DNA from: Mesodorylaimus sp. YZB2_4
Taxonomy: Eukaryota > Nematoda > Enoplea > Dorylaimida > Dorylaimidae
Assembly: GCA_030248295.1 (NCBI GenBank)
Contig: JASANH010000728.1
Span: 94,575 to 158,574, forward strand
Length of the DNA: 64,000 nt
Reading direction: 5' to 3'
The notes beneath the pieces were generated by a model that was not told where the DNA came from, ran no database searches, and worked only from the letters and a program-made list of their open reading frames with translations. Of the stretch, positions 21,233 through 64,000 are shown in pieces. Position 1 is the stretch's first letter. Every line of letters begins with the position of its first letter. The translations under genes were made by a program, and so were the position numbers.

Positions 21233-21958
21233 TTAGCTTAGAAAGTGTGCGCACAGACGTGTATTATATAGCATCGTGGATTGATTACATCTTTGCACGT
21301 ACAGTATATAGCTGACCCGCATATTAGTGCTCCTCGCTGTCATGGTCATCTTGTCCGGATATGACCTCCTGCACACGCTTATAAATTTTGATGCCGGGTA
21401 TGTGCCTATGTGAGGTATTCTGTATTGGTTCACTTTGATTTGACGGTTCAACAATCGATATTCGATTACCATTCGGCATTGATTAGCTTCTTTATTCTTC
21501 ACTAACACAGCAGGGGAAGAATATCCCGAGGTAGATGGTTGAATTAAGCCAGCCTTCAGCATCTCATCAACGTGTGCCTGCAAGACGGCGCGTTGTGCGA
21601 AAGGTAAGCGGAATGGTCGTACTCTAACTGGTGGTTGACCTTGCGTGTCGATTCTGTGTCCCACAATCTTACACTTACCTAAGTCGTAATCGTGTTTTGA
21701 GAAGATATCGTGACTATTTGTTAGTAATTTAGGTAGCCGTTCAGCTTGCTCGGGTGTCACATTTGATGATTGGATAGTGGTTTTGAACTGTTTTTGCATA
21801 TCCTGGTTGGCGAACGAGGACGACTGGTTTGCATGCTGACTCTGGGCATGACTATGTATTGACGCTACCATATCAAAGTGATTGACTGGAGTCGCAGTGC
21901 CTAACCTTGAACTACAATGTACTTTCACAAGATATTTATCAGGGTTGTGGACGACCAA
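21233..21958 (-). pseudogene. Truncated Ty3/Gypsy reverse transcriptase, N-terminal part
   Basis: The frame carries VRVRPFRLPFAQRAVLQ, EMLKAGLIQPSTSGYSSPAV and EYRLLNRQIKVNQYRIP, the standard entry region of a Gypsy RT. It then loses the match before the catalytic YxDD. It differs from the complete RT at 28-29 kb, so it is another family. There is no start codon and no flanking domain. It lies just left of the full Gypsy element. Confidence 0.8.
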
Positions 21959-22248
21959 AGAAATCTCCTTGTCTGCGGTGACGCAATAAACTGCTTCATT
22001 TATTTGTATTTGTACAAACAGCCCTATTATACCGAAATTTCATCGCAGTGTCATACAATCACAATGCAGAAATTTTTCTTTTTTTTAGAAGTTTTTTTTG
22101 AAATTCTCTTGCTTTTTAGGGAATTTTCTGTTTTTTCGGTTTTTTGTTTTAGGAACATGGCAAGGCGTGAACGATGTACCACCAAATCAAGTTGCTCGAA
22201 AGTGCACCAGACTGTATTGTTGAGCGGATACAGTTATTTTCAGTCATG

Positions 22249-22550
22249 GTGTATCACACAGGAGTTTACTAGACGCCGCACCCGGCAACAAGAAAGACTA
22301 CTCTGACCACCAGAATACACCAGTCACCCCTTATATACCCCAGGACTAGATCGCTTTGCATGGAACATGCCTATCATTTCACCTGATCACTAGGCCATCA
22401 TAGAATCACTAGGCCGGTTCTTCTAACTTGCACTTTGACCATATGGTGAGTGTTCTTCTGTCTTGCCATCGTATTGATCCGCTATGCCACCGAGGCCTGG
22501 AACCGGCTGTGTAAGGCGCTGGCTGAAAGGCAAACACTACACGCCTTACA
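22249..22550 (-). repeat. 3' LTR of the Gypsy element
   Basis: On the minus strand it starts TGTAAGGCG and ends GTGATACA, giving TG...CA. It is about 97-98 percent identical by eye to 33576-33872. A GGTATATAAGG TATA-like box lies at about 22330-22341. Confidence 0.95.
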
Positions 22551-24202
22551 CTACTACCTCACCAGTAGAGAAGGGCTTCCACTGCCCGCACAGACAGTCG
22601 ACAGGGCCTAAGTGATCAGTCAAGGCGCTCACACTACAAAGAGTCCATCGAAGAAATACCAAATACGATTCCTACCAAGGTCTGATACTCATGACATAGA
22701 AATGATCCATAGCCGGCCAAAAACCAAAAAGAGGGTAGTCCTTCGGTCCGTAACCCAAGCTTCGACCCTATGGCCAGGTGGTGCCAATCCATAGTTCCGA
22801 TGGTCTCGGCGAGGAGTACAGACTTCCGGTTTGCACGAAACGTGTCTAACTACCGTATCCCGTCTACAGTAAACTACAGTAATCCTGACATATCATAAAC
22901 ATCCTAACAGTAAGAAAGAGCCCATCCTATTGTCGTAGGCTAATCAGCACAGAGATCAATAACAGAACAGACCAAGGTACTCTCCTGATAACCCAATACT
23001 ACAATAAACACTACACGGTGCAACAGTACTACTGAACCAAGGTAGCAGGGGAAAAACATCCAACCCAATACTGAGGAATAACCAATAAATTGAACATACG
23101 AGAGAGAAATCCAGGGGCACTTCCAGGGCTCCCGATGCATTCAGGGGCGAGTCAACACTGTCAAAACCAAATTCTTATTAGAGGAAACATCATTATGGGC
23201 CGGGTGCAGGCCAAAAACAGGGGAGGGAACACACAAAAAAAAACACGATACACACATTAATTTCGACCCGAAAAGAAAAAAAAGAAAAGAAAAAAAAGGG
23301 AAAAGAAAGGAATCATAAAAACAAAGCTAATACCAGAAGAGATTGCGCCCGAGGTGTGAAAACCCAATGCATGGTAGGGGAAAAAGAATTGAAGATAGAG
23401 CTACCACCGAGCCAAAGATGGATTGAGAAACTGGTGGGAAAATAAACTCCAAAGAAAGTAGGTACAATTCCAACCCAGGCCCTATTGATATGTTAATACA
23501 GGGAGGTGCGGGCACCTAAACGAATAATCGCGTCTTGAAGAGAACCGATGAGACGGTGCGCGAGTGCAGCCACACGCAACGGGTGCGGGCGCGAAAATGA
23601 CTGACTGACGAGTGAGCCACGAGGGGCGTTTATCAGTGCTGGCCGTAGGAGGCGGGCAGGCCGGCAACCAGGGCTGGTTACGGCCGGGGGGGCAAGCGAC
23701 GAGGCGCTGTTCTACACGAAAAGGCTGGGTGGACGTGGGAGGACGGGTGCATAGAGTGTAGAGCAGTGTGCATGTGGATAGGGGCAGGACGAGGACAGGC
23801 AGACGATGCCATCACGTCGATGTTGATTCACTGTGAGCCCGGGCCCTGGACTCGGCAGCGAAGAGGTGATGGTGCGCGCTTAAAGCGTCTGCAAAGAATT
23901 AGACAAACATAGAATTTGTTAGTGTAGAACCGTCCTTTATGCAAGTTTGAGAGAGAGGCGCCATGGTGGCGGCCGAAAGAGAAAATATTTCCCATGCGCG
24001 ATGCCGGGTGGGTGCCATGGATATAGATTGCCTGTCTGAATAGCAGGAGGGAGAGAACTTTGGACTCGGTGGGTAGACAGCACCCGAACGGGTTAGATGA
24101 ACCCAAAAAGAAAGAAAACGAAGAACCAGAGAGGGGGGGGCTAAGCCCATAAAACTCAGAGGCAGAGGACCTCCGTTTGCGGCACGCCGTGTCGAAAAAA
24201 TG
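22551..24202 (-). other. Long 3' non-coding region of the Gypsy element
   Basis: About 1.65 kb between the integrase stop and the 3' LTR shows no recognised domain. The plus strand has a purine run (AAAAGAAAAAAAAG type) at about 23268-23312. There is no strong polypurine tract in minus-strand sense next to the LTR; GGTGAGGTAGTAG at 22551-22563 is the best candidate. Confidence 0.6.
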
Positions 24203-25845
24203 TTACGCAGACGTGGCCACGTCATCGGTCTGCGTCGAGGCGGCCGATGACTCCAAATTTGGGTCCACTGAACGACGTTGCTTCTGTTGCTGCAATGCTT
24301 CCTGGGCCATCGCGATCGATGCCCGAACGACCAATCGATTTGTAGCAAATACGTCGAAAAACTGTTCAAAATCATAGATGTCCTTTTTGGGCACCATTTC
24401 GCACATCGCGGGTTGCGTTTTCGTAAAGTACTGTACCAGACGACGGGTGCCATTGAACTTGCTGGGGTCTGCTTGCCGCAGTAGCTCTGTAGCCGCATCT
24501 TGCTCCGAAAGAATAACTGCTGGCCATGGAGTACCCAAGTTTGCACGAATAGCCCAAACCAAATGACCAGGCGATGCTTCGGCATCAGTGAGCATCGGTA
24601 GTCCCGTCCGTGTCTTTTTCCACTCGGTCGAGCTGACTGTACGTTTCCGTAGCGGGCGTGCGGGTAAGGCTAACTCGCTGCATTCGGACTCGGACCCAGC
24701 GCGGGGCCGCAAAGCCTCCAACCTCGCTTGCTTCGCCGCTAACCGTGAACTCTTGCGGATCGGGATCTGTGATGGTCCTGCTGGTGCTGGTGTCGTTGGT
24801 CTGACCAATTGCAAAGCTTCTGCATCCGAAAATTGACTTTCCCCGTGGTCAGATGATTCTGCCACCGACTGCGCATCGTGCCATGATTGAGCAGTATGGA
24901 CTGATTCACTGTCTCTCGCATCCATAACCATAGGGACTATCTGTTCTGAGGGCGCGTCGAGTACCAGTACCACGGGGGCATCGTCTATTGCCACTGGCTT
25001 GTTGGCTTGAACTTCTGAATTAACAGCATCCCCTGTAACAGGTGCACCAGTATCGACCACAGGTAGTCCAGACAATTGCAGCCCATCCAATGCATCATTG
25101 TCGTTGTCCGCTCCACTTGACACTTCGGGGTGATAGATCGCGAGATCAGCGAAGTTGACTGGTTTTGATTGATCACCTGGATCAGTGCAGGGGACTATAT
25201 ACGCCACAGGAGCATGTTCTTGAATCTTGACGATTCGAAATAGGCTTTTGAATCGCATGCTCCATTTGGTGCGGGTTTCATCGTGGTTTCGTCGAACCAC
25301 GTAATCACCAACCGCAAATTGAAATTTTCCCGCTCGATATCGATCGAAATCACGCTTCATCTTCGTCTTTGATTTTTGCTGTCGGTCCCTGAGACAAGCC
25401 AGAACGGCTTTCAAGCGCTCACGTCTGTCCTGTAACAGGCTAGCAGCTTCTGTCGCTCCTTTGGACGTTGGTTCAGGTTCCACTGCAGAATGGAAGATCC
25501 GATCGATTTCCTTCAATGGCGCCTGTAAGAAAGTGGCTTCATAGGGTGACATGCCGATCGTGTCTATGTAGCTCTGGCGGATCGCAGCTTGTGCCAACGG
25601 GATATAGTCGTCCCAATCATCATCGCCAGGCGAAATATGGATTGCCACGCAATCGGCGATCTTCTGGTTCAGCCGTTCCACTTGTCCATTGCCTTGTGGA
25701 TGCCAAGGTGTGGTGAATTTCTTTGTCACGCCCAATTCTCGACAGATATGTGCTAACATGGCATTATGATACTCGGGGCCGTTGTCGGACAGCAGCGTGT
25801 GTACTTGAGGATGATTGAGATAGACCGTGTTCACAAATGCTTTGC
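24203..25845 (-). CDS. Gypsy integrase, C-terminal half with PWWP-like domain
   Basis: After a one-base shift near 25843 the integrase core continues: TLLSDNGPEYH gives the second catalytic Asp and GQVERLNQKIADC the Glu, completing DDE. A small SH3-like barrel follows (VGDYVVRRNH to YIVPC, about 25195-25330), then a low-complexity acidic/Ser linker with RKSSRLAAKQARL. Near the end is GHLVWAIRANLGTPWPAVIL (about 24515-24575), matching the PWWP signature (hydrophobic-VWA start, then PWPA), followed by RRLVQYF and a helical end. PWWP domains bind chromatin carrying methylated histone H3K36 and DNA; I infer a role in choosing the insertion site. Most related integrases end in a chromodomain or nothing. 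Confidence 0.85.
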
Positions 25846-28800
25846 TACTGTACGAGCACGAATATCTGGGACTGGAATCAGATAGCAAAATTTCGTCAAT
25901 AGATCGATAAAATTGACCAAATACCGATTGCCCTTGCGCGTGACCTTGAGTGGACCCATCGAGTCGACGGCCCACACCGTGAAACGGTCATTAGGAATCG
26001 GCATTTCTCCCAATGGCGGTGTTCGATTGACACGATCAGGTTTTCGTAATTTGCATGGTAGGCAAGCAGCGCACCATCGGCGGATGTCCGTCTCCATCGT
26101 GTCCCATTGATACAATGGACGAAGCGTCTGTAGCATGCGCTCAGCACCGGGATGGTCTGAAACACGATCGGGAGAGTTATGGTGCGAAATAAAAATCAAC
26201 TTACGATACACCGATGGGACTACTATGCATCGTGATTTGTTCATTGCTTGCTGACCGCGTCGTTTGTACATCAAAACTCCATCGCTTGCTAATTCGTACT
26301 TGTACAGCGTCTTTCGGATTGTTGCACGTGCATTTGGATTTTCAGGGAGGTTACCCAAAAGGGCTTGAATGATGTCCCATAGGGCTGGTTGCGCACGTTG
26401 GGCTTTGCGTAGTTGGGCTCGATCTGGCAACAAATCCTTCATCGTTGGATAGTCGGCTGGTGTTGGTGCTTGTTCTCCGAATCCATCTGAGCTAAGGCTA
26501 GATGCCGAAACGGCTGCCACTGCTGCTACCTCATCTGCGAAGATAATCTGAGATGCAGTGGGCTGTGATGACAAGGCTAACGTCTTGAACTGCGTTCGTA
26601 GCACGGACCAATCGTGTTGGCCATTGACACTTGGTAACTGACTTGTCTCGGCTGCGTCGTTGACCAATGATTGACACCAGAGAGCTGCTCGTTCAGCCTC
26701 TTCTTGCGAAATTGTGACTACCTCACCACTTTCGACACCGGGGGTCGGGTGAATGTAAAGTGGGGCGCATTGTACTACGTTGGTTTTGCACAGATCGATA
26801 TCCCCGTAATCGCCCATCGAACTGCTGAGCCAAGTGACCGCAACTGGTTCTGGCGCATAGTTGCATTCAAGAATCAGCTGAGCGATTGGGGAACCACGTC
26901 GAACTAGAAAAGACTGAGAACCGTGGTTAAAAAGCAAAATCGACACATTACCTCGAAACTCTGGGTTGAGGACACCACAACCAACGGCTATCATCTTTTC
27001 CGATGTTGAACCAGGTAAAGGGGCAATGCGGCCGTAGCATCCTGGCGGAATCTGGATTTGCAGGTCGGTCTTGCATAACACTGCACTGTTTGGCATCATC
27101 AAATACGCGTATGCACTTGATAATTCGTAGCCAGGTGCTTCTGCTGATTGGCGGCGTGGTGGGACTGCCCATTCAGTTGTAAGCACGTAATACAAATACT
27201 TTCGTTCGTTCAACGTGACCACTGAGCGTGCTTCTGCCACTGACATGTCGGTGTCGTCGTAGACAAAGGCAGGATCAATGATCGGAAACCACTCAGTGTC
27301 AGAGCAGTCGGATGGTGGGCTGGACTGGCCCGACTTCTCCCAGATGGGACTTGCGCATACTGCAATCGCAACTGTGTCCTGAGGTTGCGCTAACATAGAA
27401 CTGGCAGTAACTGCACTTTCACTTTCTGAGTCAGAAACGATTGGAGTCAATTGAACCGCGAAGCTGGCTTTTTGCTTTTCGGATAGCTCGGACGTGTCTA
27501 CTGATCCATCTGGAGCGAGCTGCGTCCGTTTACGTGAGTTGAGCAGATCGTGTCCCACGGGCTGTCGCATACGAAGACGGAATGGCTCCTTCTGATCGAC
27601 CTTATACCGGATGGCCAAGGACGGGCCGAATGTTTCCACTAGCATCGCAGATATGCCAGGTAATCTTGTAATGTGAGCTTCTTTCTGCTTCGGTGGCCAT
27701 TGGCGGTTGGCTAATACGACTACACTTGAATTTTCGTCTTCGTCTTCCGATCGATCGTGTACACGTAACATCTCGCAGTAGTGAACATGACCAGACGATT
27801 TCGATTTGTTCGAACTTGACAGGCGCAGAATTGAAGCAGGGCCAGTAACTGGTACTAGAAACGCACGAGCTGGTTCTGGCCGATGTAATGATGCTTCAGG
27901 TGGATCCTTGTCGATCACTTCGCCATGCTCACCGAACTGATACTCATTCCGACTGATATACGCTTCGAAATCTTTCTGAGCCCTCGCATCCCAAGCATCA
28001 TTGAGAGCGTCGCCATGTGGGATGCGACTCAGTATATCGGCATTGATATTTGTTCGTCCAGGGCGGTAAATCACGTCGAAATTGAAATCTTGGAGGGCCA
28101 GAGTTAGCTGACCCAGCGCACCATCGAAAATTTTCCGCGAAAACCATTTGACCAATTGTGCATGATCGGAGTAGACCACGAAGTGGATACAGGCCAAATA
28201 GTGACGCCATCTGCAAACTGCCCATACGATAGCGAGTGCTTCCTGTGCAGGTACACTCAATTTCAATTCCGATTCAGTCAATCGTCGTGAGGCGCACTCG
28301 ATCATCCATCGGAGTTGACTGGGGTCGGCTGGATCGTGCTGCTCCAGTACTGCGCCCAAAGCCAATCCGCTAGCGTCTGTCGTGACCGTAAACGGATATC
28401 GAAAATCAGGGTATCGCAAGACAGGTTCTGATGTCAGTGCCGTTTTAAGGTGTTCAAAGGCACGAGTATGAGTTTCGTTCCACATTGCACGTTCATTTAC
28501 TGGACGACCATCGTTCATCAGGTCGTATAATGGTCTAGCGATTCGGCTAAAAGCTGGAACAAACATACGGTAGTAGCCGGCTAAGCCGAGAAAACTATGC
28601 AACTGCTTAGCTGTTTGTGGAATCGGCCATTGCTTAATTGCATCGATTTTTGATGGAAGTGGTCGAATACCGTGCCGATCGACTGCGTGACCGAGGTATT
28701 GGACTTCTTGTTGACCAAACACGCACTTCTTGGCTTGCAGCTTTAAATTCGCTTGACGAAACCGTTGAAAAACTTGTTCCAAATGTTGGCAATGCGATTT

Positions 28801-31800
28801 CATGTCTGGACTGAAAATGATAATATCGTCAATATAGGCCATACATACCTGCCAAGTAAGGCCGTTCAAAACCATCTCCATGAGACGTTGAAAGCAGGCA
28901 GGGCCGTTGATTACACCGTATGGCATGGTCTTATATTGGAACAGTCCGAACTGGGTGCAAAACGCTGTCTTGTGGGCCGTCTCCGGGTCCAATGCGATTT
29001 GATGATATCCACTGGCGGCGTCCAGTGTTGAGAAGACTGCAGAGCCCTTGAGCGTGTCCAATACGTCCCGAATGTTCGGCAATGGGTACATATCTTGCGC
29101 CGTTTGCTTGTTCAATTCCCGATAATCGATGCAAAAACGGGTGGTGCCGTCCTTCTTACGCACCATCACCACTGGGCTTGCATAATCGGAATAAGACGGT
29201 TCGATCTTGTCCAGTTCCAAATACGTCTCGAGCCATTCTTTCATCACGGGGATCATGGGTGCTGCCACGCGTCGATGTGGTTGCTTGACAGGTGGGCAAT
29301 CACCTGTATTGATTCGATGCTGCACGAAATTGGTTGTTGCCAGATGCGCATCGTGGAACGCAAATACATCGGCATTGTCTTCGATCGTCCTTCGTAACAT
29401 CGCTGTTTCTTGTTCACTCCACAATTGTTGGTCTTTGACTCCAATGACTACTCGATCCATTACGCCTTTCCTGTGTTCCTCTGAACCGATAATCGGTATA
29501 TGCGCTGTATGCTTACGAGCTTCTGGCGTGGTCTTATCTGCGCCGTCGACTGGTTCAGATGTAGGCGGTGTAGTCGCTGAGGACGTTGTTGTGACTCGAT
29601 TGATCATTGCCACTGAGCTCTGATCGACTGCTCGATACACAAATGGGTCGGCCGCGAAGGCATGCATGATCACGCCATCGACTTCTCGTGGAACATCGGC
29701 CAAATTGAATATTTCAACCTTAAAGCATACTGGAACATTAGCTGGGTCCCACCTGCCCCGGGGGATTACTATCTCCCAGTTCGACCAACTATTGATCGTC
29801 TGCTCGGTGATGCAAGGTTGAATCTGACATTGATCATTGAACTGAATCCGACATGGCACTTTCATACGGTGGCGGGGAGGGATCACCGCACGTGTAACTG
29901 TCACCTGGCCGATCGGTTGTGCTGGGCCAGTGTGAGCGAATGGGATTTCCGTGCCTTGTAGTAAGCCGACATTGTACGTCACCAATTGCTTGTGATGGCA
30001 AATTGTTGCGCCATATCGTTCTGTGATGTCTTGGCCAATCAGCATGGTGATGAGACCCTCTGGATCGAACAACAGAACCACTTCGTGCATGATGGTGACC
30101 GTCCCAAAGGTCAGGTACACGTAACGTGTTCCCATTATTCGAGGATTAGCATTATCAACAGTACGTACCTTGAGCGGACATGGCTCACACTCACCAGTCC
30201 ATTCAGGATGTATGCGCTTGTACGTGGAATGACCCATCAGCGTAATATTGGCGCCAGAATCCAAAATAACTTGCGTTCGACGGCCATCGATGCTGATAAC
30301 TACTTCTGGTGATTTGCGCTGTTGTAATTGGACTGGGGTGATGTCTGGTGGCTGTGCGAATGTTTGGCACGCTGCTTCGATGCGCCGAATCCAATTCTGT
30401 TTTTCCTGCTCGTCCGTGTAGACCCAATCGGGCTTGATCGCGTCCGATGGGATTGCATGCGGAGGTAACTGGAACAGTTCATTGACTGGCGAGGATACAG
30501 ACGTCGCTTCGTCCAATGCGGCCATCGTCACGAGTGGGATGCTGTCTGAAAGCTGGAGGCCAGTAACTGAGCTAACATTTGCCGCTTGCTGTGACGAATT
30601 GCCAACAGCTCGATTCTTCTTTGCCTCGATCAGGTCGGATGGGTAAAGCAGTGGACATCGGAATGGTCCATGTCCGGGCGAACGATCACAGCCTGGCACC
30701 TGACATGGTGGACGATCGGGACATAAGGGTGAAATATGACCCGTTTTGTTGCATGACTTGCATTGCCGCCTTGCCGAATCAGGAGGGGGTGTCGGTTGCA
30801 CGGTCGAATCATAGTTGTAGCCGGTAATCGGACATTGGAAGACACGCACTCCCAAACCGATTGCTGGTTGTCGATTAGAGCGGTCCTGTTGCTGCGAGTC
30901 CCGGTTCGAATTTGACCATTGCCGACCACCTTGCTGCCCGTTGTTGTTTCCTGAGCGGCCACCTCTGCCACCCCGATTATTCCGCTGAAACGAGGAATGA
31001 TCACTTCTATCGTTACGACTACTGTTACCTGGTGTGGCGGGCAGGACCGAAAGCGGATTGTTTCCGTTATAGCCAAAGTTACTTGGATGGTTGGGTGCTG
31101 CTCCAGCCGCATACGCTTGCGAGGCGGGCTGGCCGATCATTTCCACCGAGGCTACCGTGGGTTTGGCTGACGCCGCTGCTGTGCTCTCCATGGTCCGCTG
31201 CCGAAGCTGCCACTTGACGGCTCGCAATTTCACTTCTTCGAACGACGTTTTGTGTGAGGAATCGATACAGAAGTCTTGAATCAATGTGGCCAACGCTGGC
31301 GGCATATTCTTTTGAAATTGTTCGATCAGGATCCACCTGAGATGATCGGGTGATGCTGAGGGGAATGCGCGCCGGGCGGCCTGTTCCAATCGACTCGCAT
31401 AGGCCTGATACTGCTCGTTCGGATGAGGCTTCGTCTCCCGAAACGCAGCCATTAAATACGACTCATCTTGTAATTGGAAATGGGAACACATGTCAGTGAC
31501 CAACTGTGTCCATCGTAGCGACGATCGGTCAGGAAATTGTTTCAGGTACTCTCGCAGCCATTGACTCGCCTTATCACCCAAGTAGAATGGAAGGACTGTT
31601 GACAGTTCGATGTCACTCGTCGCTTGATACATTTTCATTCGTAAGTGGTAGTCGCACAACCATTCGTCTAACGGCGGTGACTCAGCAGTTCCTGCATATG
31701 GTTGGATGTTGAGCTGTGGTGTTTTGCCCTTATCCAGTGCTAATTGTACTCGTGACCCAATGAGCGATAGCGACTTGGCTGGCTGCAAGGCCCCTGGTGG

Positions 31801-33450
31801 CGGGGCAGACGCATTCTCCTGGATCCGACGGTGATACGTGGCCAGATCGATATTATCGATCGATCCATTGGCTTCGGGCAGTGGTGCTGATGCAGCTGCT
31901 AAATTGGGCGTTGAGCTCGATAAGCCGGGCGCCGCTTTGACCAACTCGTTGACTTGTGAGACGATCGGAGCCACTACGCTTTGCACTGTCTCACGAATTA
32001 TGGACTGGATATTGCTAACTGGCGCGGGCTGCAAAGAGGAGGTATTAGATTGTACGAGCATGGGCGTACCTGATGCGTCCGTCGGCGGGTAATGCCCTGA
32101 CGTAGGCACTGGTTGTCCAGTTTCTCGCGATCGCTGGATAAGATAGTCCATTTCAGCCATCGTATTTGTTGCTGTGGCGAGCTCCATATCGTTGGCCTTG
32201 TACCATTCGATCAATGTTTCTCGAGGGACTTCCGCCAGGTGGGCATACGGGTCTGGAAACGGTGATGACCCACCCGTGACCACAGGGTCTGCGAATTGAA
32301 CGTGTCGCTCGGAGCCAACCGCATTGGACTCGGAACGAGTTTCCATCGCTGTCGTCTTCGAAGTCGTTGAACTTGCAGATGTCGTCGTCGTTGCTTTTGG
32401 AAATAACCACATATTTCGCTGATCATCGAATACCAATGGCTGTCGAGTTACTGGGTGTAAATATCGGATCTGTGTGGGTATATTGGCGCAGAACCGCACA
32501 ATGCGAGGCCTATCACTATAACACGACATCACGCAGTCTAGAAAAAATTGCATCAAACCTGTGCCTGGGCCGAATGACGCATCCAAATCTCGTTGGGCTC
32601 GTGCATGGGCCACTGTGCGAACTGACTGCCGTAATCGATCGACGTCTTGCATTTCGTCAGCCTCGTGGGGTGCGCCAAACGCCAGTCCGGATAGCAACAC
32701 TCGCCAGAAACTGGCTGAATCGCACCACTCGAACTCGTTCCAACAGTACCATCCACTGACTGCCTCTCTAGTTGGGGGCGAGTCCAATGGGTCGGGGTTC
32801 TCCTTCGATTGGGCGAGGGGGGTATCCTTTAGCCGTATCCCTTGGGACCTTGACGAGTAGCCCACTCCTGTGGCTAACGGGCCACCCAGTGTTACAGTGT
32901 CAGCCACTCCCCTTGAGGACTGAGATACCTGTGTCATACCAATCTTTGTTGCTGCCGCAGCATTCGATTGCGTAACTGCTGCCGTTAATGCTCGTAATTG
33001 CTGCTCGATCGAACTGACTGCATCGAGTCGCAAATTGACTGCTTCCAGTCGAGAATTGACTGCTTCCAGTCGCGAACTGACCTGCCGTTCCATTGCTTGC
33101 AACATATTGTCCGATGTCTTCGATTGAGTCTCCAGCTCTGCCTGCTTGCGTCGGAGTTCTCTCATTTGTCGAGTGACTTGGTTTCGTTCTTGCACCGCTT
33201 CATCCAGATGTTGTTCAGCCTGCCGTGTGGACCATCGTGCATCCTCGAGCTGTCGTTCCAGTGCGTCGAGTTGCTGTCTGGCCCGTAACGGGTCAACCGC
33301 GTCCGTTGCATTGCGAGGAGTCGTCGACGTCGTTGGTTAATTTCGATCAGGCGCGGGTGGGTTCTGTGTGATTACAACTGATGTTTCTTCGCCGTCCTCG
33401 GTGGGGTCTATGGCCGAGCCACCACCAGTTGGTTGCAACTGGTCGGCCAT
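25831..33450 (-). CDS. Gypsy Gag-Pol polyprotein with embedded dUTPase-like domain
   Basis: An ATG at 33450 opens the frame; a TAA at 33339-33337 interrupts it at codon 38, after which it stays open for more than 2,450 codons. Order, counted from that ATG: coiled coil (about 54-157, with repeated LEAVN units), retrotransposon Gag domain (about 585-705), CCHC zinc knuckle CKSCNKTGHISPLC (near 900), aspartic protease VILDSGANITLMG (near 1063), RT with YIDDIIIFS (near 1540), RNase H with TTDASGLALGA (near 1690), dUTPase-like domain (about 2076-2211), integrase zinc finger (HH near 2423, CAACLPC near 2465) and the first catalytic Asp in VDSMGPL (near 2495). Gag and Pol share one frame. The frame ends at 25831 inside the integrase core through a single-base shift. 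Confidence 0.93.
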
Positions 33451-33557
33451 GCGATCGTGGCAGTCGATGACCGGGCCAGGGACTGGAAGAGAACACTACG
33501 GTCAAACCGCTTGCTGGTCTAGTGGCGACTAGGATACCACTTGGTACCGGGTAATGA

Positions 33558-33574
33558 CCGGCTATGGGAACCAA
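33558..33574 (-). other. Candidate primer-binding site of the Gypsy element
   Basis: Two bases after the 5' LTR the minus strand reads TGGTTCCCATAGCCGG. Starting with TGG, it would pair with a tRNA ending in CCA. The tRNA is not identified. Confidence 0.5.
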
Positions 33575-33575
33575 A

Positions 33576-33872
33576 TGTATCACACAGGAGTTTAATAGAC
33601 GCCGCACCCGGCAACAATAAAGACGACTCTGACCACCAGAATACACCAGTCACCCCTTATATACCCCAGGACTAGATCGCTTTGCATGGAACATGCCTAT
33701 CATATCACCTGATCACTAGGCCATCATAACATCACTAGGCCGGTTCTTCTAACTTGCACTTTGACCATATGGTGAGTGTTCTTCTGTCTTGCCATCGTAT
33801 TGATCCGCTATCCGAGGCCTGGAACCGGCTGTGTAAGGCACTGGCTGAAAGGCAAACACTACACGCCTTACA
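33576..33872 (-). repeat. 5' LTR of the Gypsy element
   Basis: TG...CA ends as in the left copy. The candidate primer-binding site follows immediately on its inner side. Confidence 0.95.
33652..33665 (-). promoter_or_regulatory. TATA box of the Gypsy 5' LTR
   Basis: On the minus strand the LTR reads GGGGTATATAAGGGG, a strong TATA element, conserved in the other LTR. No initiator was fixed. Confidence 0.6.
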
Positions 33873-33876
33873 ATGG

Positions 33877-35159: not shown

Positions 35160-37197
35160 TTGAACGATTCACAAAAGGAAAAGCAAAGTCAAGAGATAAG
35201 CTTCAGCAGCACAGTAGACGGTCAGGATAGCCAAGAGGCAAGCTTCAGTAGTACAGTTGAGGACCCGCAAGAGGAGGAGATGGCAAATAACAGCAGTGAG
35301 GAAACAGCGCATAAGGTTAAGGAAGTAGCGGAGACAGCCCAAGAGGGACAAACTAACATAACGCAGCAACGCAGACACATAAGGCAAGACGTACATACGG
35401 AGATAGTAGCGGACAACAGAATGGAACAGTTAGCCACGCAATTGAGAGCAGAGTTAGCAGAAGCCACCATAAGGCAGGTTAACACACCAGGAAATTTGAT
35501 GGGTCTTCTGGGAAGAATCAATCTAGGAGGCACACCGCCCATATTCGGAGGTAGCATCGATGAAAGCGTAATAGACTGGTTGGACGATTTTGAAAGATTT
35601 TCTCGCCGCTTGCAGTTAGATGAGCAAGCAAAAATCGATTTCCTAGATATTGCCGTAATGGGGTCCGCAAAAAAAGCATACCGGGACATCATGATTGGAG
35701 CTCCCAATCCACTCACTTGGGCCTTTTATCGCCAGCACTTCATTGAGAGATTCCCAGAGAGTCGCGCAGCCGCTCTAAGAGATCTAGAGTTTCAGCAATG
35801 GGTACAGAGAGAAGGAGAAACATTAGAAGCATTTGCAAATGATTTGAAACAATTGGCAAGAAAAGCATTTCGTGATTCCACGAACGCTGAACAAGAAAGC
35901 AGAGTAAAATCACAGTTTCTCAGAGGGTTAAAATCCGCACAGATGAGGCAAATGGTGGGCAGTATGGACATAAATAATCCTACGCTGGATGATTACATCC
36001 GCAAAGCATGCGCTATGCAACTGTGCGAACCAGGGAGGAAAGTTAGGATCGGCGAACGCGTCCACGGATGAATCAGCAACACTGTTAAAAGCATTCAGCT
36101 TAATGGCCAACGTTTTAGGTCAAAAGGCCGGAATCAGTGGGACAAGTAATCGACGTATTGACACAATGGGATGCGACGAATGCAAGAAGCATGGACGAGC
36201 GTGGAAATCGCATAGCAGTCAGGAATGCCGATTCCAGACCAAGTGTCAGCTGTGTGACCGCCGGGGGCACGACGCAAAAAGCTGCCGCGACCCACGATTG
36301 TTCAATGGGCCTGCAACACGCCAACCGCACCAACAGCTGTTCCAAGAGACCAATTCAGCAAAACGACCCAACGATAACCAATGCCGGAAGTGTAACCAAG
36401 AAGGACATTGGGCCAGGAATTGCCGAAATGGAAACGCAGCCACCATACAAAACATGGCCACCAAGGAAAATTGGCAGCCGATCGACGAAGCCGCTTTCGT
36501 TATCTATGCCGGCAGTATCAAGAAACGGAAGACGTTGCTACCAACGCCGCCAGCTCCAAAGGTGCAACAAGTTAAAGAAAGGACGAACGAGCAGCCGCTG
36601 ACGATGATCGAGACCCAATCGTCATCACCAACCCAGTCCCCTCAGCAGCAGCGACTCGAGTTACAACAACTGAAGCCACTACACCAGCAACACGACAAAA
36701 TCGAGCCGAACTTGGAGACAGCCCTAAAAATCGAAATCAACCCAGAACGCGTTGAACCTCGCACGCAGCCAACCAATGCCCAAACCGAAACAGACGAACA
36801 CGACATCACGCCAGAGTTGATCGAGTTTCTACCTGACTCGCCAGCGGAGTCGGTCGCAGACAATGAGAGCGAACACCAAGACCCGAACATCGTCAAGTGC
36901 ACCAAATGGACAGCTTTGGACACAACCCCCACTCCAGTCGAACAAAACCCCACCGAGGTTCCGCCTTTTTCAACCGAGGTCTACCCAACCCGCACGGCGC
37001 AGTTGCTGAATTGCATCCATGGGCTAGTCGACCACGAAGGCGAGATTCACGACATCGAAAGTTACGAGCACATCAGTTCGGCGTTGAGCCAATTGGCGGA
37101 CGAAGGCGCGCACAATACGGACCCACCACCACTCTTATTACGCAAAATTATCAAAGCCAATGAAGGCCTGATGGTATTCGGGTATGCTGCCGACTAA
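35160..37197 (+). CDS. Retroelement Gag polyprotein, one frameshift
   Basis: The frame is open from about 35085; the first ATG is at 35280 (MANNSSEE). Upstream are three short SQEASF/SSTV-type repeats. A retrotransposon Gag domain spans about 35550-36020 (WLDDFERFSRRLQL, RDLEFQQWVQREGETLEAFA). A single frame change lies between about 36000 and 36050. The second frame has two CCHC zinc knuckles, CQLCDRRGHDAKSC (36249) and CRKCNQEGHWARNC (36382), then a Gln/Pro/Glu-rich tail to a stop at 37197. It would package element RNA. The tail shows no protease, so Pol is truly absent. Confidence 0.8.
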
Positions 37198-37353
37198 AGC
37201 CGACGTCTTTACGGACGATGGGAAGAAACGTACAACCGACAAGGGTCGTCGAAGCGGAGCCGACCAGATCCGTGAGGTCTGCAAGAACCTAGCAAAAGGT
37301 ATAATCCACCAGGGAAGCGTATTAGGAATTACACAGCACCGATATGGGCCATC

Positions 37354-38430
37354 ATGGGATTAGCATTGTGCCTATACCTAGACAGCATACCAACAACACA
37401 AGCACAGATAGAAGAGTACTACTTGCGTGGAGCATCGAAGAGCGCAACGGCAATAGCTGTCCCAACAGACATAACATGTACAGCGCCAAGGGAGCTCTCC
37501 GAAACTGTCGCATCCATGAAAGCAGAAGTTTGGGTCCGCAGGGATACACCAGACCAAGTTCCCGCTGCAAAATGCTCTTGGGTGGAACATACCGTCTGCT
37601 CCACGGTCGCATTCCTGGGCTGGAGATCAGAACGCATTAACACTAGGCGCATCATACCAACAGATCCTCTTGAATGTCAATTTGCATGGAAGTACCGTCA
37701 AATCAAAGGCAAAATCATATTGCAGTTAGACGAGGGCGTATGGGGAACAAATGACACTTTGGAAATAGGATCCACATGGTGTTGCAAGGAAGTCTGCCAA
37801 ACAAGCAGTAATTTCATTCTAGAGCTCGGATCAGTCGCAACAAATGACGGGCACGCTATATGGAGCGACTTGGACGACCTCTCGAACTGCGAAGCGAATA
37901 TGACAGCGTGTGTGACCGAACATAACACTGTGGTTTGGAAAGAGAACGTATTTACGCACTTTTGTCCATTGATATATAAAAAGGATGTCACGCTAAAAAT
38001 AAACGACAAAGCGATCATTATTGACTCGCTACAAGCAGCGTTGACTTACGGTGGACTCAGCACCCTATGCAATCAAACACATATGCACAAAACGATACAA
38101 GGTGTCTATCTACGATCACCTGCATTGACGCAACACATGACAAATAAAAAAACCACAACTCGGCAAAAGCGACAAATACTTGATTCTCTTGACCCAGAAA
38201 ACGCAAAACTGCAGTACTTAGAACTCAGGATACTGGAACTCGAGCAAGCGAACTTCCGCCAAGTTTGGATGGAACTCTGCAAAACAGCAGCCCGGCAGTT
38301 ACAGCATTTTATACAGCCCGGATATTTTTACAGCCCGGATATTTTATACGCATTCAATGATATTTTTATGTTCATGGCTTTTACTTGTGGTCATGATGTT
38401 TTCATTGACAATCGATCTCCCCTCGGCTAA
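37354..38430 (+). pseudogene. Envelope-like glycoprotein with furin-type site, C-terminally truncated
   Basis: An ATG at 37354 begins a signal-peptide-like segment (GLALCLYL), and the frame is open further upstream. A Cys-rich ectodomain follows with paired Cys (WCCKEVC) and NxT/NxS sites. A basic cleavage motif RQKR lies near residue 275. After it comes a helical segment (AKLQYLELRILELEQANF) with a downstream Trp and Cys; this layout reminds me of class III, gB-like or chuvirus-like glycoproteins carried by some retroelements. The frame ends about 80 residues after the site, with a short duplicated CAGCCCGGATATTTT and no membrane anchor. It is therefore broken and would not yield an anchored protein. 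Confidence 0.5.
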
Positions 38431-61296: not shown

Positions 61297-62640
61297 CTAT
61301 AAAAAGCCTAATAACAACAAGAGGATAACGACGGCCCATTTTAAAAAAACAACAACACCCTCACCACAAAAATTATTATAGCGCGGGAAACACACAGCAA
61401 ACAAACAAACAACAGCGCGGCGTTGCAAAAGAACAGAGCTGTCATAGTCAATTTTCAAACGTAGGTTGCCGTACTCGTAAGTCGGCTTCAAAGTACTTCC
61501 ACATTCGTCAAAGCGTTCCAAGTTAAAACACATGATGGTTGAGTAATTGCCATAATTTTCATAACTGATTTCTGACATGCCCGCTTTTTCCAGAGAGCAG
61601 CCCGAGTTCAAAAAATAGTCCAAGTACATGCGTACATAATCATTTTTTACAAAGTCACACTGGTATGGTGCTGTAACCAATAGGCCATTTTTCTCCAGGG
61701 TTACGTTTTTCATATTGTATGGTTGGAACATGAACGGGTTGTTAGCTATGGGCCCGGCGAAGTCACGTTGCATCAACTGAACAATTTCCAGGCGAGAAGG
61801 CAGTAAGCCCTCGTAGATGCAAGCGTCCACCGATAAGACATTTTCAGGTACAATCAAAGGTTTAAGGATGGTGTCATTGAAGCTATAGGCGGCCGGCGTG
61901 GTCATCAGTCGTCGTTCCATGGCTGCGAAGGATGTGTCGTGCAGTCTGATGCGGCGGACGTGCAAATAGGCCCGTTCAATGTTAACTGTGAAATCTTCTT
62001 TTTTAGCTGGATCGATCATGTACAAAATAAAGGCCTTTGGATCTCGTCGAAACAGGCGAATGACTATCTCGACCCTCGGAATCATATATTTACGAATCTT
62101 GAAAAAGTCCAGCTGAATAGGCCCGATCAGGTGCCCAGTGCCACTGTCATAGTATGGCTTGAAGGTGTTCAGTAATTCGGGTGAGAGTCCTTGCAGGCCA
62201 CCATCGTACCACCCACTGCCACTCAACCACGATTTTCTTTGATCATACGAGTAATTTGACAAAACATCCAAATAAGCACTCCAGGGCAAGCAGCTGCTGT
62301 TTTGTAGAACCAGCTGATTGTTCAAAAAAACAGTCACACCAGAAAACATGGACATTAACACATTCGGTACCAAGCCGATTTGTTTTGTCCTGGGTATGCC
62401 TTTCTCTGTTTCTTTATCAGTTACATACTGGATTTTCATGTGCAGTTCCAGGAGAGTAGGCGACAAATCAGTGAACCAGTTAAGGATGCTAGGGATACGA
62501 AATTCCAAGGCAGTATTCACATCATCATTAGGCAAGGACACATTGACAGGTATAATTTCTTTACGACTCTCGGCTACACTTCTTTCTTCTGGCGGATCAG
62601 AAAACACGTCCAAGTCCACAGTAGTATCTAGTCGATTCAT
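61297..62640 (-). CDS. Polinton major capsid protein (F54H12.2-like)
   Basis: It is an uninterrupted 447-residue frame from ATG 62640. The opening (DLDVFSDPPEE), then FLNNQLVLQNSSCLPWSAYL and SNYSYDQRKSWLSGSGWYD, and RVEIVIRLFRRDPKAFIL and SIEKAG/YENYG-type strings match the nematode F54H12.2 type, regarded as a double-jelly-roll capsid protein. Length fits such capsids. After LRLKIDYD the C-terminus becomes hydrophobic (VFLKWAVVILLLLLGFL), unlike the usual polar end, so the last 45 codons may be shifted out of the original frame. Confidence 0.8.
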   Translation of the reverse strand: MNRLDTTVDLDVFSDPPEERSVAESRKEIIPVNVSLPNDDVNTALEFRIPSILNWFTDLSPTLLELHMKIQYVTDKETEKGIPRTKQIGLVPNVLMSMFSGVTVFLNNQLVLQNSSCLPWSAYLDVLSNYSYDQRKSWLSGSGWYDGGLQGLSPELLNTFKPYYDSGTGHLIGPIQLDFFKIRKYMIPRVEIVIRLFRRDPKAFILYMIDPAKKEDFTVNIERAYLHVRRIRLHDTSFAAMERRLMTTPAAYSFNDTILKPLIVPENVLSVDACIYEGLLPSRLEIVQLMQRDFAGPIANNPFMFQPYNMKNVTLEKNGLLVTAPYQCDFVKNDYVRMYLDYFLNSGCSLEKAGMSEISYENYGNYSTIMCFNLERFDECGSTLKPTYEYGNLRLKIDYDSSVLLQRRAVVCLFAVCFPRYNNFCGEGVVVFLKWAVVILLLLLGFL

Positions 62641-62849
62641 TTCTTCTTCTGGACCTTCTTACTCTTCTTGCTAACTCGTTTGCGTTTTAATGAACGCTTC
62701 CGAACCACCGACTTGGAGGACCTTTGAACTTTAGGCTTACGAGTCTTTTTCTTTCTGTCCGTCTTGGAAGAATTGGTTTTACCAAACAAGAAAAACAAGT
62801 GCAAACGATCAACTGGCTGGTTAGTACGAGCACGAGGCTGCTCTGCCAT
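62637..62849 (-). CDS. Lys/Arg-rich core-like protein of the Polinton
   Basis: Seventy residues, with the last 45 mostly Lys, Arg and Ser (KKKTRKPKVQRSSKSV, then KRKRVSKKSKKVQKKK). This resembles DNA-condensing core proteins of adenovirus-like viruses. Its stop overlaps the capsid gene start as ATGA at 62637-62640, which suggests reinitiation or one shared transcript. The frame is intact. Confidence 0.6.
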   Translation of the reverse strand: MAEQPRARTNQPVDRLHLFFLFGKTNSSKTDRKKKTRKPKVQRSSKSVVRKRSLKRKRVSKKSKKVQKKK

Positions 62850-62933
62850 GACTATAAAACATGAAAATATTACGGATATTTATTTCCACACTGCACTTTT
62901 TGTGCTCTAATAAAGTGAGAATAGGAGTATTAT

Positions 62934-63320
62934 TCAAGATTGCTCACGAAAATGCAAAACAATCAAAGGAACGGCATCTAAAGACAAGTCTTTTCCATTG
63001 ATATCAGTGATATGACAAGTAATTGTAGAAATGTTGTTAGCTAAAAGACGAACGTAAGTACGCTGGACATCACTGGGCACACTGGAGTATACGCCCACCA
63101 CAGGCATCATCCTGTCATTATACAGACTAGGCACCACAATATCAGTACACACTAAGGCTACAGGCAAAGACGTTTGTATATAACAGGCGGCTAAGGTAAC
63201 TTCATACTCGAGCATATCGGTTAATGGTTTAATCAAGACATTGCTGAATAAAGAATGACTATTTTGCGGAAAAGCATGCTTGCTGCCCGAGCTAGTCATG
63301 TACACTGTAAATCTTTTCAT
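62934..63320 (-). CDS. Polinton small structural protein, minor capsid candidate
   Basis: It is a 128-residue protein starting at ATG 63320 that overlaps the integrase stop. It has the form seen in other animal Polintons: a start like FTVYMTSSGS, a middle ADxQ-like beta-rich part and an end reading ITDINGKDLSLDAVPLIVLHF. Position between integrase and the core/capsid genes fits a virion component. Whether it is the penton or another minor protein cannot be told from sequence alone. The frame is intact. Confidence 0.6.
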   Translation of the reverse strand: MKRFTVYMTSSGSKHAFPQNSHSLFSNVLIKPLTDMLEYEVTLAACYIQTSLPVALVCTDIVVPSLYNDRMMPVVGVYSSVPSDVQRTYVRLLANNISTITCHITDINGKDLSLDAVPLIVLHFREQS

Positions 63321-64000
63321 AATTCTTCTTCCGCGTCTGAATCTCCAGTGACAATATCGGATTCTTTAATCCAGCTTTTTTCCCTATACCCTTGCCACTT
63401 GACCAGCAGCTCACGTTCACCAGCTATGTTGGTTCGTCGTCGTAAAATTTTTTCGATGCGATAAACGCCAGTAGGGGTCACTTTTTGTAATTCTTGAGCG
63501 TAAAATGTACCCTCGATAGGGCCAGTCTCGGAAGTCAACTTGTACACGATAGGCTTTCGACGAACTATGGCTCGAATCGTGAAAATCTCCTCAGACCAAG
63601 TGGCCAAATAACTTTTATGGAAGGGATGCCTCTCTTTTGCGATCCGAACTGAGTCACCAACAGCGAACACGGGTTCCTCTTTGCGTTGATGCTCAGGATA
63701 CACTTTCCAATTATCGGGATACAAGTTCTTGAAAACCAAATCACTGTTCTCAGGTGTGACATTATTTGGCGCCATTTTTATGACACGGCTAACACTATTG
63801 TTATAGGACTCGACCAAATCAGACAAAACATCAATATATCGCCTGGTTAGGTTATGCAGCAGGTACTTGAATATTTTTCCCTTCAGTGTTCTGTCTGCCC
63901 TCTCGGCCATGCTGGCTTTGATCTCACTCGAAGTCGAATACATGCGGATACCCATCTTTGTGAATAGATCCTTGACTGACTTGTTGTAGAATTCGGTCCC
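63317..64000 (-). CDS. Polinton integrase with C-terminal chromodomain, partial
   Basis: The frame is open from the window edge. TEFYNKSVKDLFTK and STSSEIKASMAERADRTLK are the end of the retroviral-type integrase core, with the catalytic Glu in the SEIKASMAERA part. A basic SH3-like segment follows (VGDSVRIAKERHPFHKSY), then a chromodomain, YRIEKILRRR to LLVKWQGYREKSWIKESDI (about 63355-63475). It integrates the element, and the chromodomain would bind methylated histone tails. It corresponds to the C. elegans F54H12.3 type. The next gene's ATG overlaps its stop by four bases. Confidence 0.93.
   Translation of the reverse strand, partial: GTEFYNKSVKDLFTKMGIRMYSTSSEIKASMAERADRTLKGKIFKYLLHNLTRRYIDVLSDLVESYNNSVSRVIKMAPNNVTPENSDLVFKNLYPDNWKVYPEHQRKEEPVFAVGDSVRIAKERHPFHKSYLATWSEEIFTIRAIVRRKPIVYKLTSETGPIEGTFYAQELQKVTPTGVYRIEKILRRRTNIAGERELLVKWQGYREKSWIKESDIVTGDSDAEEEL

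Follow-up and report, generated by a model that had tools for sequence, protein, structure and literature searches.

The 64,000-nucleotide window (the whole stretch of DNA analyzed here) contains a Ty3/Gypsy LTR retrotransposon that appears to belong to a set of families with a PWWP domain at the end of the integrase, where chromoviruses have their chromodomain. At the sequence level, the comparisons described below demonstrate the identity of this domain, its fusion to the integrase in one frame, its occurrence in several distinct families, constraint on it, and its co-divergence with the integrase; we infer binding to methyl-lysine, the specificity of that binding, and any influence on where insertion takes place. 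In the account that we consider somewhat probable, the DDE core would perform cutting and joining, the SH3-like domain and a basic linker would hold DNA, and the PWWP would serve as the integrase's own chromatin tether by binding nucleosomes with a methylated lysine, most likely H3K36me2/3, with the outcome that new copies would be inserted in transcribed regions. This would be LEDGF/p75-like tethering of integrase, but in cis. Steering to H3K36-methylated gene bodies, which a preliminary description of this DNA had proposed, is a reasonable prediction.

Including its target duplication, the element occupies positions 22246–33876 on the minus strand. Alignment of the LTR pair and the TG..CA ends place the 3′ LTR at 22250–22550 and the 5′ LTR at 33576–33872 (both minus), with 97% identity across the longest ungapped stretch, and the flanking sequence contains the target-site duplication ATGG at 22246–22249 and 33873–33876. 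LTRs with TG..CA ends and a 4-bp target-site duplication, which are features of Ty3/Gypsy LTR retrotransposons, are thus present, and the domain order PR-RT-RNaseH-IN was found in the window element, L068, and L070–L073, with the protease weak or absent in some. The first frame (25831–33195, minus) encodes gag, protease, RT, RNase H, dUTPase, the integrase zinc finger, and the initial part of the integrase core. RVT_1, RNase H, dUTPase, Integrase_H2C2, and Asp_protease_2 scored above their Pfam cut-offs in this frame, and Retrotrans_gag (22.8 bits, slightly) and rve (13.8 bits) scored below theirs. The dUTPase lies between RNase H and integrase at 26836–27159 (minus; PF00692, 72.5 bits, ORF residues 2013–2120), and among the pol ORFs scanned only those of the window and L070 contained this domain. 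The integrase zinc-binding domain H2C2 lies at 26038–26220 (minus; PF17921, 46.5 bits, ORF residues 2326–2386).

The second frame (590 aa; 24203–25975, minus) holds the remaining integrase core, the C-terminal domain, the linker, the PWWP, and a tail; its rve score was 19.1 bits, far below the cut-off of 32.6. A basic RKSSRLAAK-type motif is found in the low-complexity linker at 24701–24757 (minus), and motifs resembling it were recognized by eye in L029 and L089. The PWWP follows at 24287–24568 (minus; PF00855, ORF residues 470–563), and after it comes a C-terminal tail, DPNL(E/D)SSA.ST.T.DV (24218–24265, minus), which was invariant at most columns when 12 window-clade tails were aligned.

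Around the element, 21233–21958 (minus), directly to its left, appeared by eye to be an RT-like fragment of another Gypsy element; it matched no RT model and gave only weak Pfam matches below cut-off. A nested insertion into this fragment was not borne out, as joining the flanks gave no recognizable RT or protease frame across the junction. Another retroelement lies at 35160–38430 (plus), with an ORF judged gag-like by eye (without a Pfam match), a zinc-knuckle ORF (PF00098, 24.7 bits), and a third ORF that looks envelope-like by eye, with a basic cleavage-like site and no Pfam family above cut-off. No Rfam family scored above its cut-off within the window.

The preliminary description had read the second pol frame as running without a stop from the integrase core through an SH3-like barrel to the PWWP. 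The frame is indeed open from the remainder of the integrase core to the PWWP, but its separation from the first frame is most simply explained as a lesion of the window copy, because a sister copy on C884, 95% identical to the window copy over the last 131 aa, carries integrase and PWWP within a single 1860-aa frame, and because this frame matches residues 43–387 of the window's second frame while residues 1–47 match another C884 frame. Comparison with the sister places the frameshift in the integrase core at approximately 25831–25850 (∼25.84 kb, minus). Long frames also occur in window-clade members, of 1543 aa on C529 and of 3108 aa on C271. A programmed frameshift between the two pol frames was unsupported given the single frame of the sister. 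The integrase of the window copy thus reads as broken, and the frameshifted core weakens the case for an active tether in this particular copy. The barrel itself is plausible by eye, as an integrase C-terminal SH3-like (GPY/F-type) region at approximately 25121–25321 (minus), but the Pfam profile search of the ORF gave no SH3 model match in the window copy; SH3_Tf2-1 was matched in 11 and Integrase_p58_C in 12 of 43 related C-terminal pieces.

The peptides from which a PWWP-like segment had been proposed at the integrase end were found in the ORF at 24203–25975 where they had been placed, and the profile search that had been suggested for them bore the proposal out. Against the curated PF00855 cut-off of 25.6 bits, the whole second-frame ORF scored slightly too low (24.0 bits, E = 5.8e-5), and the last 131 aa alone scored above it (27.8 bits, E = 3.5e-6), as did the window tail in a six-frame search of the genome (27.9 bits). 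At a lenient E≤1, PF00855 was matched by 11 of 12 window-clade tails, several of which are near-identical (best E = 5.4e-9). A profile built from these 12 tails matched a profile of 13 PWWPs from the genome's other families with 97.6% probability (E = 3.7e-12). When compared with solved structures, the window-clade profile found the NSD3 PWWP first, at an E-value of only 0.03, with unrelated chains from 0.19. The 13-family profile found DNMT3B at 5.9e-18, then the PWWPs of NSD2, HDGF, NSD3, MSH6, and LEDGF, and the L068 PWWP alone matched those of NSD3 (8.4e-7), MSH6 (2.4e-6), and LEDGF (1.7e-5). A single-sequence AlphaFold2 model of the window domain reached a mean pLDDT of 42, too low to judge whether a five-strand barrel with a helical end is present. 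The PWWP begins ∼180 residues past the SH3-like region, and we therefore rejected the idea that it is the integrase's own SH3 domain.

The similarity could in principle be a chance match or the decayed, functionless remnant of a one-off capture. The score of the whole window ORF below the cut-off, the frameshifted window integrase, and L070 (a window-clade full pol with dUTPase), which showed no PF00855 match at E≤0.01, would all agree with this explanation. However, the domain occurs in many copies from several families, scores above cut-off, and is constrained, and the genome-wide, pol-ORF, and profile-to-profile matches led us to reject a chance match for the group; we consider this explanation very improbable.

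The chromodomain is given as the hallmark of chromoviruses in the abstract of PMC3605345. This hallmark, a chromodomain at the integrase C-terminus, was absent from the material scanned, as none of the 43 C-terminal pieces and six pol ORFs matched PF00385 at E≤0.01, and a chromodomain in place of the PWWP was therefore rejected. The genome as a whole had 80 chromodomain matches, a few of which adjoin short integrase frames when coordinates are compared by eye; these frames may be Maverick-type. A weak chromodomain match (23.9 bits, below cut-off) lies within the window at 63344–63463 (minus), near an ORF at 61297–62640 (minus) that we take to resemble a Maverick capsid protein and that had no Pfam match. 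The region 61297–63463 (minus) is possibly a Maverick/Polinton.

The PWWP tail is widespread in the host genome. The segment, whose absence from sister copies had been raised as a possibility in the preliminary description, is present in the C884 sister and in the 53 matches obtained when the genome was searched with the last 131 aa. PF00855 itself had at least 149 matches at E≤0.01 (150 of 173 candidates scored), ∼35 of them in frames of at least 1000 aa, the longest being 2265 aa. By coordinate matching, at least 63 of the 149 lie within 3 kb downstream of a same-strand integrase match, a lower bound set by the number of candidates scored (150 of 526 for rve and 107 of 469 for the integrase). 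No integrase was assigned to the remaining 86, among which there may be host genes and copies that are broken. Seen from the integrase side, 69 of 108 matches (a copy can be represented by several pieces) were followed downstream by a PWWP or a window-type tail, with 48 of the 53 window-tail matches entering the comparison, and the best 150 rve matches included 46 followed in this way; many integrases of this genome are without either tail. Of the 39 integrase matches with no tail downstream, 10 are minus-strand matches no more than 700 bases from the start of their contig.

The proposal that the PWWP is built into the integrase was supported by sister copies, in which the domain shares one open frame with the integrase, and by the pol ORFs. 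Five of the six fetched had a PWWP above cut-off in the same frame as RT, RNase H, H2C2, and rve (56.1, 56.7, 47.2, 39.1, and 30.9 bits), and the 43 C-terminal pieces included 36 with PWWP, 26 with rve, and 20 with the zinc finger.

Several contigs (L086, L087, L088, L089, and L030–L036) share the same end point, to within a few bases, in the integrase–PWWP linker of one window-clade subfamily. They reach it from both sides, some contigs carrying the integrase half and others the PWWP half, and among 48 window-type tails, 11 are plus-strand matches at most 500 nt from the start of a contig. Despite the sharp position, the shared ends probably mark a repeat at which the assembly broke off. As a further observation on the host genome, the telomere-type repeat (TTAGGC)4 had 972 and 921 exact matches, where the control had 0 and 1, which suggests a nematode; the SL1 leader was not found with up to two mismatches allowed.

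Three loci on three contigs, L023, L024, and L026, retain protease, part of the dUTPase, linker, and PWWP joined in one frame, the intervening RT, RNase H, and integrase having been lost; two of the frames are 1616 and 1605 aa long and the third is 657 aa. These may be non-autonomous derivatives. Retention of the PWWP without an integrase suggests a role beyond the integrase, and the domain, if needed there, may act on the Gag polyprotein. This observation is the main point in favor of a different explanation, that the PWWP works mainly outside integration, for example in retaining the Gag/Gag-Pol particle or its RNA in the nucleus or on chromatin. However, the derivatives may retain the tail merely through its proximity to needed 3′ sequence, their dN/dS of 0.26–0.38 is based on 10–23 changes per pair, and they are alike over their entire 3.4 kb (∼94% identity) and so possibly represent one insertion. 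At least 63 of the 149 PWWP matches, moreover, do come after an integrase, and we regard a function mainly outside integration as improbable.

The families differ in the methyl-lysine cage, which in LEDGF we take to be M, W, and F. These three residues are identical to LEDGF in the alignment of L068 (L039 is the same locus) and are also kept in L059. By eye, the first cage position is leucine in L038 and valine in L071, the phenylalanine is missing in L072, and the tryptophan is missing in L073 and L076. In the window copy, L011, and L015, the tryptophan is kept, tyrosine takes the place of the phenylalanine, and the residue of the first cage position has been lost; L029 keeps the tryptophan, and L023, L025, L028, and L030 have leucine in its place. 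The PWWP of the window clade is thus divergent, with a partly altered aromatic cage, whereas some other families keep the cage. Because cage residues vary, ligand specificity probably differs among families, and the divergent cage makes the predicted mark less certain in the window clade than in families of the L068/L059 type.

Constraint on the domain was estimated from synonymous and nonsynonymous changes. In the 15 of 59 PWWP-segment pairs with dS of 0.1–1.0, which are not independent of one another, dN/dS was 0.07–0.38; near-identical pairs gave noisy values up to 1.81, and distant pairs were saturated. The window copy compared with L009 gave 0.62 from 9 changes. Purifying selection, which the preliminary description had named as a point to check in sister copies, is thus supported in the related families by the pairs of moderate divergence. 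The two comparisons of moderate divergence outside the deletion derivatives, L011 with L012 and L030 with L033, gave 0.18 and 0.22.

These values also bear on a rival account, in which the PWWP is a chromatin tether for a ligand other than H3K36me, the window clade having shifted to a different mark, or to binding nucleosomal DNA as such through a basic surface and the linker. Both the window clade and its relatives with a dUTPase have changed cage residues while dN/dS is still low, and divergence inside the clade is faster in the PWWP than in the integrase (identity 0.32 versus 0.57 between the window copy and L025). Yet L068 and L059 retain the LEDGF-like M/W/F, and a single ancestral ligand is simpler; we consider the altered ligand rather unlikely, though it deserves weight. 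A tether for H3K36me2/3 is the reading we retain.

The domain has diverged together with the integrase. Between the window copy and L011, identity was 64% in the integrase (103 codons), 28% in the linker, and 64% in the PWWP. Integrase and PWWP distances co-varied across the 8 of 12 loci that had an anchor motif (Mantel r = 0.93, 0 of 2000 shuffles as high), and also when the test was restricted to 5 rows (r = 0.89, 19 of 2000 shuffles). An RT tree that included 18 of 19 external proteins, with no named reference set, separated seven PWWP-group rows and one unlabeled external row (P0013) from four chromodomain rows on a weak branch (30/93). The tree is consistent with a single origin of the PWWP rows; since the branch is weak and P0013 falls among these rows, multiple captures of the PWWP are also possible.

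Among known systems, chromoviruses are the nearest in kind, and the present elements look like a chromovirus with a different reader. Both have the Ty3/Gypsy order and a histone-reader module after a linker at the integrase C-terminus, but the module is a PWWP (PF00855) here and a chromodomain (PF00385) there. Chromodomains mostly direct to heterochromatin, whereas PWWPs direct to H3K36-methylated transcribed chromatin. The second parallel is LEDGF/p75, whose PWWP, according to PMC8149907, links lentiviral integrase to chromatin. A PWWP is predicted to join integrase to chromatin in the present element too, but LEDGF/p75 is a host protein apart from the integrase and carries an integrase-binding domain, and the present PWWP lies within the element's own polyprotein. 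A dUTPase inside a Gypsy polyprotein, as found here, is reported for fungi by Novikova and Blinov 2008, as cited in PMC2774666; compared with such dUTPase-bearing Metaviridae, the present case differs in its animal-type genome and in the combination with a PWWP tail.

The claim that no retrotransposon integrase with a PWWP has been described held in the open-access literature searched and in protein database searches. The integrase–PWWP part of L068 had 19 matches among 2625 candidates, none with PF00855 in precomputed domains; the L068 PWWP part alone had no protein homologue among 88 candidates at E≤0.01; and the L070 C-terminus had no homologue with PF00855 among 3276 protein candidates. 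These searches require shared 5-residue words and similar length and can miss distant or fragmentary relatives.

A broader evolutionary proposal, which we offer as tentative, is that a Ty3/Gypsy lineage internalized the LEDGF strategy. The integrase-fused PWWP would have been inherited as families diverged and would steer the element into H3K36-methylated transcribed chromatin, opposite to chromoviruses, and the window clade would since have retuned its reader. How retroelements choose their landing sites is a long-standing question. Two answers are well known, namely integrases with a chromodomain and tethers supplied by the host, LEDGF among them. A PWWP acting in cis would be added to these, and it would predict insertion into active genes, which is costly for the element. 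Several diverged families of this genome carry the PWWP, and they form a natural series in which PWWPs with intact and altered cages are placed on one type of enzyme, which would make insertion pattern directly comparable with reader specificity.
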